A DNA stretch of 41,247 nucleotides from an uncultured Gammaproteobacteria bacterium (GTDB lineage: Bacteria; Pseudomonadota; Gammaproteobacteria; JAADHQ01). The position numbers and the translations under genes were made by a program. Under the pieces are notes generated by a model. The model did not search any database. It was not told the DNA's origin and saw only the letters and a list, made by a program, of their open reading frames with translations. How positions within the stretch are numbered: the stretch's first letter is position 1; every line of letters starts with the position of its first letter. Of the stretch, positions 3-10,394 are shown one piece after another. The stretch spans positions 1-41,247 of the forward strand of contig CAMYJD010000031.1 in the NCBI GenBank assembly GCA_947258655.1, in the 5' to 3' direction.

Positions 3-686
3 GACGGTCCATTGAGCGCGTTGCGCTTCAGTGCTCCGGGTGCCCCGGCTGGTTCAACCCTTGTCGATAACTTCGATGGTACCGGCAGCTTCACCTGGAT
101 CCCGGCTACGTCCGGTACCTTTAACGTCAATATCATCGTCACCGACAGCAACGGTTTCGGTCTGTCCGACAACGAACTCGTGCCGATCACGGTCAATCCG
201 CCCGGCGGCGGGCAGTTGCCGTTCAATGGCAGCCCGGCCCCGATCCCGGGCCAGATCGAGGCCGAGCACTATGACCTCGGTGGCGAGGGCATTGCCTACC
301 ATGACAACACGGCCGGCAATAGCGGCGGTCAGTTGCGCGCGGATGATGTCGATATCTTCAACAGCGCCAGCGAAGGCCTCTATACCGGTGCCAATAGCAG
401 CGGCGAGTGGCTCGAGCATACGGTCGATGTCGCTGCTGCCGGTGCGCATACTCTAAGGTTGCGTATCGCGACACCGAAAAACGGCAAACAGGTGCATGTC
501 GAGATGAACGGCGTCGATGTCAGTGGTCCGATCGCGATCCCGAACACCGGTGGCTGGCAGACCTGGCAGACCATCAGTGTGCCGGTTACGCTTAATGCCG
601 GGCCGCAGGTCATGCGTATCATGTTTGACAGCGGTGGCCTGAACCTGAACTGGATCAACGTGCAGAACGGTATCGTGCCTCCATAA
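3..686 (+). CDS. Secreted Ig-like/CBM6 carbohydrate-binding protein, C-terminal part (5' end outside window)
   Basis: The reading frame is open from base 3 to the TAA at 684-686, so the gene begins upstream of the window. The visible start of the product is the end of an Ig-like (He_PIG/cadherin-like) module, recognisable from a DNFDGTGSFTWIP stretch and a PITV end. A CBM6-type beta-sandwich follows: IEAEHYDLGGEGIAYHD, then a DDVDI motif, a GEWLEHTVDV strand and a GLNLNWINV end. The same module occurs twice in the next gene with the same order of motifs, so the two genes are paralogous. CBM6 modules bind polysaccharides and are usually attached to secreted glycoside hydrolases. Any catalytic domain would lie upstream of the window and cannot be judged. 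This copy is visibly more GC-rich than the downstream paralogue. Confidence 0.85.
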   Translation, partial: DGPLSALRFSAPGAPAGSTLVDNFDGTGSFTWIPATSGTFNVNIIVTDSNGFGLSDNELVPITVNPPGGGQLPFNGSPAPIPGQIEAEHYDLGGEGIAYHDNTAGNSGGQLRADDVDIFNSASEGLYTGANSSGEWLEHTVDVAAAGAHTLRLRIATPKNGKQVHVEMNGVDVSGPIAIPNTGGWQTWQTISVPVTLNAGPQVMRIMFDSGGLNLNWINVQNGIVPP

Positions 687-1101: not shown

Positions 1102-3630
1102 ATGAACAAAAACATCAGCACTACCCTTAACCGCCTGCCTGTTCTTTTGCTGTTGACCGGGATGGCTTCATTCACACATGCGAATGTGATACCTGATGCG
1201 TCGTTCGAGAACGGAAAAAACTGGATCTCGGCTGACTATGCATCATCGCTGGTCAATTCACCTACCCGCACCGGTTCAAAGGCAGTAAAGCTAATCAATG
1301 ACGGTGCCGCCAAAGGCCATAACTTCGGCCAGTATAATATCGGTGGCGTCACCCCGAATCAGGAATACGTCTATACAGTATGGGTCAGAGGTAACAACGT
1401 TCAGGGTGTCGGCAACGGCGGTAAACCACTCTCGGTCACACGTTGGCGCAACAGCGCTTCCAACAAGATCGCCAAAGAGATGTATATGTGGGCACCCTAT
1501 AACACCTATGACTGGCGTCCGATGTTTATCCATATACAGGCGCCGGCCAATGCTGCCAAGGTAGATTCATCTTTCCGCAGTTGGTACGACTGTCTTTCCG
1601 GCACAACCTACTGGGATGATGTCTCCCTGGTCCCACGTACGTTCCCGAACCGCGGTAATCTGCTGGACAGTTATCAGGCAGAAAATGCTAATACCAAATC
1701 TGGCGGCTCCGTACACAATGAGGAATCCGATTTCACCGGTTCCGGCTACTTCGATGTCACCAATAACGGCGCAGTTCTGCAATGGAATAATGTGACCGGC
1801 GGCGGTGCCAGGATCCTGTCCGTGCGCTATGCCTATGAAGGCAACGCGAGAAACATGACCCTGTACATCAATGGTGTCAGCCAGGGTGCGAAGAAACCCG
1901 TACTGACAGGACGTCGTGGAAGCTGGGCCAGTATGGACTGGAATGTCGACCTGCCGTCAGGCGGCAATACCGTACGTCTGCAGATCGGCAAGACCGGTGG
2001 CATCAACTCACAGCCACAGATAGACAAAATTGATGTCTATGCCAGCTCTGGCGGCGGCGGTGGCGGTGGTGGCAACCAGGCACCCAGCATTGCATCTATC
2101 GGTCAACAAAATGTCGAAGAAGGCCAGACCCTGAGCTTCACGGTCACTGCCAGCGATACCGATGGTCCGGCACCATTGACGTTGACAGCATCGAATATGC
2201 CTGCCGGCGCCAGTTTTACCGATAACGGCAATGGTAACGGCACTTTCTCATGGACACCAGGCAGCGGTGCCGCAGCCAACAGTCCATACAGCGTGAAATT
2301 CAAGGCCACTGATGGAGCCGGAGCATCCGGTACCCGTTCGGCAACGATCAATGTCAGTACACCGGGCGGTGGTGGCGGTGGCGGCGGCGGTAGCCAGCAG
2401 CCCTATCTTGGTTCACCGGCAGCGATACCTGGCGTCATCGAGGTCGAGAACTATGATCTGGGTGGCAAGGGTGTTGCCTACAATGACAAAACCGCCGGCA
2501 ACACGGGCGGCAAGTATCGCACAGACGATGTCGATATCTGGAACAATGCCTCTGAGGGTTTTTACACCGGTTCCAATGCAAAGGGAGAATGGCTGGAATA
2601 TACGGCCAATGTAGCGAGTGCCGGTAACTATACACTGGAGATTCGCTACTCGACCAAGAAAGACGGTCGTAGCGTGCATGTCGAGTTTGATGGTGTCGAT
2701 GTCACCGGGCCAGTCGCTTTACCCAACACCGGAGCATGGACAGCATGGCAGACTGTCAGCGTACCCGTAACACTGGCTGCCGGTGAACAGGTCATGCGCC
2801 TGGCCATCGACGAGACTGGCGTCAACCTGAACTCCATCAACATCAGTAGTGGTGGCGGTGGCGGCGGCGGGCCTCAAGCACCGGTACTGGCACCAATCGG
2901 AGCCAAGACTGTTGAAGAAGGTTCCACATTGAAGTTCACGGTCAAGGGAACCGATGACGAAGGTCCAGCAGGTCTGGTATTCGGTGCAAGCGGTCTGCCT
3001 CAGAGCGCCACATTTACCGATAATAAAAATGGTACCGCGACGTTCAAGTGGACACCGGGCAGTGGTAGCGCCGGAATCTATAACGTGACCTTCACGGTGA
3101 CCGATGAAAGCGGTATTGGGCAATCTGACAGTGAAGTCGTGCCCATCACCGTCACACAGGTGGCTGCAGGTCAGCAACCCTATGGTGGCACACCCCACCC
3201 CGTTCCTGGCGTGATAGAGATGGAAAACTATGACCTCGGCGGTGAAGGTGTCGCTTACCACGATACCAGCGCGGGCAATACAGGCGGCAAGTATCGTAAT
3301 GATGATGTCGATATCTGGCTCACTGGTGGCGAAGGCCATTACACGGGAGCCAATACAAAAGGTGAGTGGCTTGAGTTCACCGTTGATGTCGCCAGTGCGG
3401 GCAACCATACATTACAAATCCGCTATGCAACAGCTAAAGACGGCAGGCAAATACACATTGAATATAATGGTGTAGACGTTACCGGTGATATTACATTACC
3501 CAATACCGGGGCCTGGAATGTCTGGCAAACCGTTAATGTACCCGTGACATTGAATGCCGGTCAGCAGGTCATGCGTGTGTTCATCAAGAACAGCGGTATT
3601 AATCTGAACTCGATCAATGTAATCAAGTAA
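1102..3630 (+). CDS. Secreted multi-domain carbohydrate-binding protein (CBM4/9-like, CBM35/6-like, two Ig-CBM6 units)
   Basis: The 842-residue product begins with a Sec signal peptide (about residues 1-27, cleavage after THA). Next come a CBM4/9-like jelly roll (about 28-180) and a CBM35/CBM6-like module (about 188-315). A polyglycine linker (317-324) leads to an Ig/He_PIG module (about 326-418), a second polyglycine linker (422-430) and a CBM6-type module (about 432-580). A third polyglycine linker (584-590), another Ig module and a final CBM6-type module (about 698-842) follow. The CBM6 copies share IEMENYDLGGEGVAYHD-like openings and NTGAW..WQT motifs. I see no catalytic domain, so this is probably a surface or secreted polysaccharide-binding protein rather than an enzyme by itself. 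It is a paralogue of the truncated gene upstream. Exact CBM family numbers are inferred from pattern only. Confidence 0.88.
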   Translation: MNKNISTTLNRLPVLLLLTGMASFTHANVIPDASFENGKNWISADYASSLVNSPTRTGSKAVKLINDGAAKGHNFGQYNIGGVTPNQEYVYTVWVRGNNVQGVGNGGKPLSVTRWRNSASNKIAKEMYMWAPYNTYDWRPMFIHIQAPANAAKVDSSFRSWYDCLSGTTYWDDVSLVPRTFPNRGNLLDSYQAENANTKSGGSVHNEESDFTGSGYFDVTNNGAVLQWNNVTGGGARILSVRYAYEGNARNMTLYINGVSQGAKKPVLTGRRGSWASMDWNVDLPSGGNTVRLQIGKTGGINSQPQIDKIDVYASSGGGGGGGGNQAPSIASIGQQNVEEGQTLSFTVTASDTDGPAPLTLTASNMPAGASFTDNGNGNGTFSWTPGSGAAANSPYSVKFKATDGAGASGTRSATINVSTPGGGGGGGGGSQQPYLGSPAAIPGVIEVENYDLGGKGVAYNDKTAGNTGGKYRTDDVDIWNNASEGFYTGSNAKGEWLEYTANVASAGNYTLEIRYSTKKDGRSVHVEFDGVDVTGPVALPNTGAWTAWQTVSVPVTLAAGEQVMRLAIDETGVNLNSINISSGGGGGGGPQAPVLAPIGAKTVEEGSTLKFTVKGTDDEGPAGLVFGASGLPQSATFTDNKNGTATFKWTPGSGSAGIYNVTFTVTDESGIGQSDSEVVPITVTQVAAGQQPYGGTPHPVPGVIEMENYDLGGEGVAYHDTSAGNTGGKYRNDDVDIWLTGGEGHYTGANTKGEWLEFTVDVASAGNHTLQIRYATAKDGRQIHIEYNGVDVTGDITLPNTGAWNVWQTVNVPVTLNAGQQVMRVFIKNSGINLNSINVIK

Positions 3631-7993: not shown

Positions 7994-8065
7994 AGGGATT
8001 CAGTCAAACTATTGTTTACAGTATTATTACACTCAGTTACACTTTTTTCATACCAAGGAATCAAT

Positions 8066-9253
8066 GTGGACATAAAACTGTCTGAGCGCGTCAAACGCGT
8101 CAAACCCTCGCCAACGCTGGCAATCACGGCACGTGCAGCGGAATTACGCGCTGCCGGCAAGGATATTCTCGGCCTGGGCGTAGGCGAACCGGATTTTGAT
8201 ACACCTGAACATATCAAAAAAGCTGCTATCGATGCTATCCAGCGCGGCGAAACCAAGTATACCGCAGTCGATGGCACACCGGCACTGAAGCAGGCCATTA
8301 TAAACAAGTTCAAGCGAGATAATCAGCTGGATTATCAGCCTGAGCAGATACTGGTTTCATGCGGTGGTAAACAAAGCTTTTATAACCTGTGTCAGGCCAT
8401 GCTGAATGAAGGTGATGAAGTTATCATACCGGCCCCATACTGGGTTTCCTATCCCGATATGGTGTTATTGGCCGATGCGACACCTGTTATCGTCATGGCA
8501 GGTCGGGAACAGGGTTTCAAAATAACACCAGATCAGCTGGAGCAGACCCTGAATGATAAAACACGCCTGTTTGTGATCAACAGTCCTTCCAATCCAACCG
8601 GCGTTGCCTACCGACGCGAGGAACTGCTGGCATTGGGAGAAGTACTCAGGCAATACCCCGATGTCCTTATTGCGACCGATGATATGTATGAACATATCCT
8701 GTGGATGGACGAAGCGTTTATGAATATCCTGATGGCATGCCCGGACTTGTATGAGCGCACAATTGTCCTCAATGGAGTATCCAAGGCCTATTCAATGACC
8801 GGCTGGAGGATCGGCTATGCCGCAGGCCCCGCTGATCTGATCAGGAACATGAAGAAAATCCAGTCACAGAGTACCTCGAATCCGTCATCTGTTTCGCAGG
8901 CCGCAGCCCTGGCCGCGCTGGAGGGTGGACAGACCTGCATTGACACAATGATGGTGGCTTTCCGCGAACGCAATCAATACCTGGTCGAGGCATTAAACCG
9001 GATACCCGGTTTTCAATGTCTGCAGGGCGATGGCACTTTCTATGCTTTCCCCGAGGTCAGTGCGGCCATTGCCAATATTGAGGGTGTCAACAACGATGTG
9101 GAGCTGGCCGAGTATCTGCTCAATGAGGCCGAAGTCGCAGTGGTTCCCGGCTCGGCCTTCGGTGCCGAAGGCTACATTCGGCTATCGTTTGCCACCAGTC
9201 TGGATGTACTCAAGGAGGCTATAGCCAGGATCGGCAAGGCACTGTCCAGATAG
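8066..9253 (+). CDS. Class I aspartate aminotransferase (PLP-dependent)
   Basis: I chose the GTG at 8066 because AAGGA (8055-8059) precedes it by six bases. The resulting product, starting MDIKLSERVKRVKPSPTL, has 395 residues, normal for subgroup I-gamma aspartate aminotransferases; the open frame extends upstream to an ATG at 8012 that lies in the uvrB promoter area. The enzyme transfers the amino group of aspartate to 2-oxoglutarate. The motifs GLGVGEPDFDTPEHI, NSPSNPTG and SKAYSMTGWRIGYAAGP are present; the PLP-binding lysine is Lys240. Some homologues also act on prephenate or aromatic oxo-acids, which would fit the aromatic pathway genes further along. That is inference only. Confidence 0.93.
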   Translation: MDIKLSERVKRVKPSPTLAITARAAELRAAGKDILGLGVGEPDFDTPEHIKKAAIDAIQRGETKYTAVDGTPALKQAIINKFKRDNQLDYQPEQILVSCGGKQSFYNLCQAMLNEGDEVIIPAPYWVSYPDMVLLADATPVIVMAGREQGFKITPDQLEQTLNDKTRLFVINSPSNPTGVAYRREELLALGEVLRQYPDVLIATDDMYEHILWMDEAFMNILMACPDLYERTIVLNGVSKAYSMTGWRIGYAAGPADLIRNMKKIQSQSTSNPSSVSQAAALAALEGGQTCIDTMMVAFRERNQYLVEALNRIPGFQCLQGDGTFYAFPEVSAAIANIEGVNNDVELAEYLLNEAEVAVVPGSAFGAEGYIRLSFATSLDVLKEAIARIGKALSR

Positions 9254-9329
9254 CGGTTTTTATTGTAAATTCGCCGTTTCACTATTGACCAGGGACAGAA
9301 CAATCAGTAAGATTAGCGCCCTGAACTGA

Positions 9330-9402
9330 TCCCCAATAGCTCAGTTGGTAGAGCAACGGACTGTTAATCCGTTTGTCCCTGGTTCGAGCCCAGGTTCAAT
9401 TC
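9330..9402 (+). tRNA. tRNA-Asn(GUU)-like gene with an unpaired acceptor stem (possible pseudo-tRNA)
   Basis: The cloverleaf is clear from position 8 to 65. The D arm is GCTC/GAGC with AGTTGGTA loop. The anticodon stem ACGGA/TCCGT carries loop CTGTTAA with anticodon GTT. The T arm is CCTGG-TTCGAGC-CCAGG. The 5' acceptor strand is TCCCCAA, so the 3' strand should read TTGGGGA. The sequence instead reads TTCAATT, pairing only at the two innermost positions, and no CCA follows (TGC instead). This looks like a tRNA-Asn whose 3' end has been replaced, or a decayed extra copy. Mismatch over five consecutive positions is too much for one sequencing error. Confidence 0.75.
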
Positions 9403-9512
9403 TGCAGATTTCACCCTCCTGGCAAGCATCCAACAAAACTGATAGCTCCTATCCTGAGATCTGCTCAGCACATAATATTCCGCCAAGTATAGTCTTGAAA
9501 TGGCAATGCGTA

Positions 9513-10394
9513 CTATTCGTCCATGCTCTCGACAAACTCTTTCAGATACACCTTGAAATCCTCGCCCAGATCCTTGTGATTAACACCATATTCGACCGTG
9601 GCAGCCAGATAGCCCAGTTTACTACCGCAGTCATAGCGCTTGCCACGGTAAGCGTAGGAATAGACATCCTGGGTTTTCATCAGTTGTGCAATGGCATCAG
9701 TCAGCTGGATTTCTCCACCCAGGCCCTTGGGAAGATTTTCGAGGATCCCGAAGATCTCCGGGGTCAGTATATAGCGCCCTACTACGCCCAGATTTGACGG
9801 CGCATGTTCAGGCAAGGGTTTCTCAACAATTTCCTGTATTTTGCCTGTCCTGCCGTCGACATCCGTTATTCTAACGATACCATACTTGTGGGTTTCCGAC
9901 GGATCAACCTCTTCCACCGCAACAATACTGCTCTGTACCTTATCGAACAGGTCTGTCATTTGAGATAATACCGGATTGCGTCCCCCATAAATCATGTCAT
10001 CGGCCAGCAACACTGCAAACGGCTCATCACCGATGACCTTTCTGGCACAATACACGGCATGTCCGAGACCCAGTGGGCGCGACTGTCTGATACCCATGGC
10101 AGTGACATATTCAGGCATGATATCCCTGATTTCTTCCAATTGATCAAATTTTCCTGCTGCCTCCAGCTGCACCTCGAGTTCGACCGATACATCAAAATGG
10201 TCCATAATCGCGCGTTTGCCACGCCCGGTGATGAATATGATCTCATCGCAACCGGCATCGATGGCCTCCTTGACCGCGTACTGGATCAATGGTTTATCAA
10301 CAACGGGTAACATCTCCTTCGGACTGGCCTTGGTAGCCGGTAAGAATCGAGTTCCTAATCCCCCCACGGGAAATACTGCCTTCTTGATCTTCAT
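9513..10394 (-). CDS. galU: UTP-glucose-1-phosphate uridylyltransferase (GalU)
   Basis: The 293-residue cytosolic enzyme makes UDP-glucose from UTP and glucose-1-phosphate, for polysaccharide, LPS and glycan synthesis. The nucleotide-binding signature GGLGTRFLPATK is near the N-terminus, followed by KEMLPVVDKPLIQYAV. LADDMIYG supplies the metal-site aspartates, and IVEKP supplies a substrate-contacting lysine. Length and motifs match bacterial GalU. It starts at ATG 10394 with only weak Shine-Dalgarno signal. It is the first gene after the glcF-like gene on this strand, 85 bp away, and has its own upstream palindrome (10435-10448). It ends facing the tRNA-Asn-like gene. Confidence 0.96.
   Translation of the reverse strand: MKIKKAVFPVGGLGTRFLPATKASPKEMLPVVDKPLIQYAVKEAIDAGCDEIIFITGRGKRAIMDHFDVSVELEVQLEAAGKFDQLEEIRDIMPEYVTAMGIRQSRPLGLGHAVYCARKVIGDEPFAVLLADDMIYGGRNPVLSQMTDLFDKVQSSIVAVEEVDPSETHKYGIVRITDVDGRTGKIQEIVEKPLPEHAPSNLGVVGRYILTPEIFGILENLPKGLGGEIQLTDAIAQLMKTQDVYSYAYRGKRYDCGSKLGYLAATVEYGVNHKDLGEDFKVYLKEFVESMDE

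Follow-up and report, generated by a model that had tools for sequence, protein, structure and literature searches.

The window analyzed here, meaning the whole 41,247-nucleotide stretch of DNA, corresponds to contig C31 in the draft genome (3.48 Mb, 92 contigs, approximately 98.7% complete) of an uncultured gammaproteobacterium. The feature under study is an ordinary single-locus tRNA-Asn(GUU) gene of a gammaproteobacterial genus, which in this draft assembly lacks its last nine bases and is placed between an aminotransferase gene and a convergent galU gene (Table 1). The damage seems to be limited to the tRNA, since ten conserved protein genes in the window are complete.

Table 1. Positions of the features at the cut tRNA-Asn locus of the window, and of the intron-bearing tRNA-Ile genes in the own genome (G000) and congener G003.
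Feature	Position	Strand	Basis or comparison
PLP-dependent (aspartate-type) aminotransferase, upstream neighbor, intact	8012..9253	+	Same neighbor in congeners
Sigma-70-type promoter of tRNA-Asn (TTGACC, 17 nt, TAAGAT)	9285..9313	+	Scan and congener alignment; conserved in congeners
tRNA-Asn(GUU), bases 1-67	9330..9396	+	100% identity with the intact genes in G002 and G003 (congeners)
Anticodon GTT	9363..9365	+	Alignment with intact congener genes, Asn(gtt) by ARAGORN
CAATT in place of 3' acceptor strand, discriminator, and CCA	9397..9401	+	Congeners: GGGGAGCCA; acceptor pairs left 2/7
Spacer between cut tRNA and galU, 116 nt	9397..9512	.	Not a repeat, no phage match, chance-level plasmid match only
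galU, convergent downstream neighbor, intact	9513..10394	-	Same neighbor in L058-L060
tRNA-Ile(CAU) with group I intron, own genome	G000:C18:47202-47530 (L242:321-583)		Rfam RF00028
tRNA-Ile(CAU) with group I intron, G003	G003:C4:55806-56132 (L243:325-585)		Rfam RF00028

As described in the initial annotation, the D, anticodon (GTT), and T arms are complete, which was supported by the sequence, the Rfam match, and the predicted fold. Since 67 of 67 bases are the same as in the intact tRNA-Asn genes of G002 and G003, this is no chance resemblance. The Rfam tRNA model (RF00005) matched positions 9335-9396 with 52.4 bits, covering model positions 6-65 of 71 only, and ARAGORN called no tRNA gene at 9330-9405. 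The acceptor stem was also found to be as first reported, with the strand TCCCCAA opposite TTCAATT, two of seven pairs formed, five positions unpaired, and no CCA. Base 67 is followed by CAATTCTGC, where the acceptor strand and CCA would be expected. The best other downstream partner for TCCCCAA (6 of 7, at 9727) is within galU, 330 nt off, and is not credible. The window RNA folded into the three arms with the acceptor stem absent, at -19.0 kcal/mol, whereas the intact gene of the congener reached -27.6 kcal/mol.

In all three congeners compared (G001-G003; L058, L059, and L060; MAGs such as HyVt-415), an intact tRNA-Asn was found at the same place, with the same flanking genes and promoter as the window copy, and ARAGORN classified each as Asn(gtt). 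The congener genes end in TTGGGGAGCCA, whereas the window copy lacks GGGGAGCCA. The genes of G002 and G003 show no difference from the window copy over 67 bases, after which the match ends, and that of G001 shows one. Compared to G003 (GGTT-GGGGAGC-CAATTTC), loss of seven bases is the simplest way to arrive at GGTT-CAATTC in the window; compared to G001, a loss of approximately 12 bases with a TT repeat at its ends also accounts for the window sequence. The earlier suggestion that the 3' end had been replaced with everything else intact was correct for the 67 bases, but "replaced" is overstated given that the 7-base loss relative to G003 explains the change, although the spacer is longer as well. 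The spacer to galU measures 116 nt in the window versus 42 nt in G003 (approximately 70 nt longer) and was not found in the congeners. The family- and order-level searches covered four congener genomes only. Among the 140 genomes of a class-level sample, nearly all close matches spanned the whole tRNA-Asn, and the few partial ones were also diverged.

tRNA-Asn is essential, and the assembly was searched for a second copy and for the missing end. No second tRNA-Asn was detected in the assembly, either by similarity or by a pattern combining the CTGTTAA anticodon loop with the T loop, and TTGGGGAGCCA was likewise not found in it, leaving no displaced 3' end; both searches proposed at the outset, for another intact tRNA-Asn(GUU) and for the 3' end elsewhere, were thus negative at the level of the assembly. 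A general tRNA search returned at least 30 matches, and among the matches listed 29 were full length and the window copy was the sole partial one. One tRNA-Asn was found in each of G002 and G003, and the two contig ends of G001 that overlap by 95 nt exactly at tRNA-Asn represent one gene. The idea of a decayed extra tRNA therefore holds with respect to the damage and not with respect to "extra", as there is no other tRNA-Asn in the assembly and the congeners possess one at this locus. No intact isoacceptor that would make the copy a redundant pseudogene was found in the assembly, itself without several tRNA species, and substitutions have not accumulated in it (0 of 67 versus G002 and G003). 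A split or permuted tRNA was considered and rejected, as the missing part is encoded nowhere else in the assembly and there were no further similarity matches.

The divergence of the neighboring galU gene was used to assess the age of the lesion. Between the own genome and G003, 62% of the galU fourfold-degenerate sites differ (JC about 1.3), and over the lineage's share of that time approximately 44 substitutions would be expected in 67 bases of a dead gene; none were seen. With zero substitutions in the tRNA and 62% change at fourfold sites, the lesion is either very young or absent from the organism. Under neutrality, a real lesion would be younger than at most about 7% of the lineage's own branch. 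The initial annotation's remark that the pattern is unlike random decay agrees with this, there being no slow decay and 67 of 67 bases untouched.

We noted that other tRNA genes of this assembly are affected. The tRNA-Gly(GCC) gene at C55:14632-14662 (L247) is cut at base 31, with its anticodon missing, and tRNA-Cys starts 12 nt later. The Gly-Cys-Leu tRNA run is whole in G001 and G003, and compared to these congeners the rest of tRNA-Gly(GCC), a terminator, and most of the spacer to tRNA-Cys are gone (approximately 111 nt). tRNA-Trp, tRNA-Tyr, tRNA-Gly(TCC), and tRNA-Thr(GGT) were looked for in the assembly and not found. In G001 and G003 a Thr(GGT)-Gly(TCC)-Tyr cluster is located beyond Thr(TGT), and contig C69 of the own genome starts 3 nt after Thr(TGT). 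tRNA genes less than 200 nt from contig ends were observed at five spots compared to 0.3 expected (P about 1e-5). Contigs C23 and C24 both end in one tRNA-His with a 38-nt overlap, and G003 contains a 43-N gap inside its tRNA-His. A 4-nt deletion breaks the reading frame of galU in the G003 assembly (L060:4001-4882). From the cut Gly(GCC), the absent tRNAs, the excess at contig ends, the tRNA-His breaks, and this galU deletion, it follows that assemblies of the genus fail at tRNA genes and that small losses occur. No N was seen in approximately 264 kb of the own contigs, a total that includes overlaps, and contig C31 is unbroken through the lesion.

We infer, with a probability of roughly 60%, that the deletion at this essential tRNA is an artifact of assembly or consensus and that the organism has a normal gene. 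The conserved tRNA-Asn gene would have lost its last nine bases during assembly or consensus building, and the living organism would keep a normal tRNA-Asn(GUU) between the aminotransferase gene and galU. This is favored by the intact congener gene in the same place and the 67/67 match despite the galU fourfold-site difference, by the lack in the assembly of another copy of this essential tRNA or of its end, and by the second cut gene, the absent tRNAs, the contig ends enriched at tRNA genes, and the G003 galU frameshift. Against it, contig C31 is free of N through the lesion, the mechanism for a clean loss of 7-12 bases is unexplained, and the 116-nt spacer private to the own genome would allow for local rearrangement of the real genome. 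An origin of the lesion in the assembly is the likeliest reading, and in the initial annotation it appeared only among the outcomes that would count against its proposals.

A very recent small deletion in the organism itself is the main rival, and a tentative possibility. It would have left a dead tRNA pseudogene, with an intact tRNA-Asn in an unassembled part of the genome, for example near the rRNA operons or in a mobile element. The continuity of the contig and the N-free own sequence speak for such an event, as do the simplicity of the 7-base change versus G003 and the tRNA species missing from the assembly, which imply gaps that hold tRNA genes; the longer private spacer suggests a locus that has genuinely changed. 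However, the congeners have one tRNA-Asn at the same locus, so any back-up copy would need to be new, and the same would apply to tRNA-Gly(GCC), although Gly(TCC) might partly cover that loss. The window copy resembles the truncated tRNA pseudogenes of bacterial genomes in having its 5' part kept, its 3' end absent, and no call by ARAGORN, and differs from them in that no intact second copy was found and no other substitutions are present. We consider it unlikely that an integrative element in the 3' end of tRNA-Asn was involved, whose imprecise loss, or a deletion, would have taken the 3' end and left approximately 100 bp of foreign spacer. Integration at a tRNA gene restores its 3' end. Integrative elements that attach at tRNAs affect the 3' end of the tRNA, the part affected in the window, and tRNA-Asn of this type is used in this way elsewhere: three viral contigs (L257, L258, and L261; IMG/VR) carry only the 3' half of tRNA-Asn, ending in TTGGGGAGCCA in the manner of an attachment site, and the spacer is longer than in G003. 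The core in these viral contigs, however, extends from the anticodon arm to CCA, and the break in the window (base 67) falls inside it. There is no second 3' end in the assembly and no element DNA at the locus, where galU is directly next, and no integrase gene was recognized beside the tRNA-Asn when the open reading frames were read by eye. The spacer contains no repeat, gave chance-level matches only within its own genome (the 17-nt match in C40 is inside a rluB-like coding sequence), had no match to phage, and had one 35-nt match to plasmids (E 0.08), which is not credible; its first 20 bases were sought in the viral contigs and were not present. The initial proposal that recombination at an integration site had exchanged the 3' end is accordingly improbable.

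The gene could also be functional with its 3' acceptor strand restored post-transcriptionally, by analogy with the mitochondria of the centipede Lithobius, in which case the bacterium's only tRNA-Asn would be encoded incomplete and its transcript completed by template-directed 3' editing; we regard both the analogy and the reading built on it as highly improbable. The intact promoter and 67 bases would fit, as would the lack of any tRNA-Asn besides the window copy in the assembly. In Lithobius mitochondria, as many as five acceptor mismatches are corrected after transcription (PMC4284800), and the five unpaired positions here equal that maximum; as in the edited tRNAs of Lithobius forficatus, the acceptor stem is encoded with five mismatches on its 3' side. 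In contrast to those tRNAs, the window copy belongs to a bacterial genome, and the relatives encode a normal tRNA-Asn end. Editing of tRNA 3' ends is known from organelles only, with no bacterial case identified (PMC4284800). Gly(GCC), the other cut gene, ends before its anticodon and is beyond such repair. The edited tRNA proposed among the first explanations is for these reasons disfavored. A real deletion with no other copy would challenge the view that bacteria have no 3' tRNA editing, but the evidence points away from this.

The loss thus probably stems from faulty assembly, or otherwise from a deletion that is very recent, and the window copy is probably not a new kind of tRNA. Draft environmental genomes may show tRNA genes that are cut or absent where assemblies fail at such conserved stretches, and a clean-looking contig is no safeguard against a falsely cut tRNA gene.

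Several additional features of these genomes were noted. The window contig starts mid-coding sequence (window 12-686), with repeated sections like those of the 842-aa secreted-looking protein encoded by the next gene (1102-3630); the two may be tandem copies that caused the contig to end there. Between tRNA-Thr(TGT) and tRNA-Tyr, 5 to 8.4 kb were found in G003 (L238:645-5593) and G001 (L239:688-9100), which may represent an island within this group of tRNA genes. A second copy of the tRNA-Leu(CAG) 3' end is present at G000:C57:10318-10341, where ARAGORN found no whole tRNA, and is possibly the border of an integrated element. Three tRNA-Ser genes (at the 3' end of L249, C39; L245:1-200, C70; and L248 by tRNA-Ser(TGA), C45) are each followed by an inverted tRNA-Ser 3'-end fragment, and two of these three loci also share the repeat TAAAAGYAGTAGCTAGTTGCGAGTAGCTAGTAGC. 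In both the own genome and G003, the anticodon loop of tRNA-Ile(CAU) is split by a group I intron of approximately 260 nt (Rfam RF00028; 84.4 and 83.2 bits, respectively). The tRNA-Ile(CAU) of Azoarcus likewise carries a group I intron in its anticodon loop. A 2014 review placed tRNA group I introns in cyanobacteria and in alpha- and beta-proteobacteria (PMC4033280).
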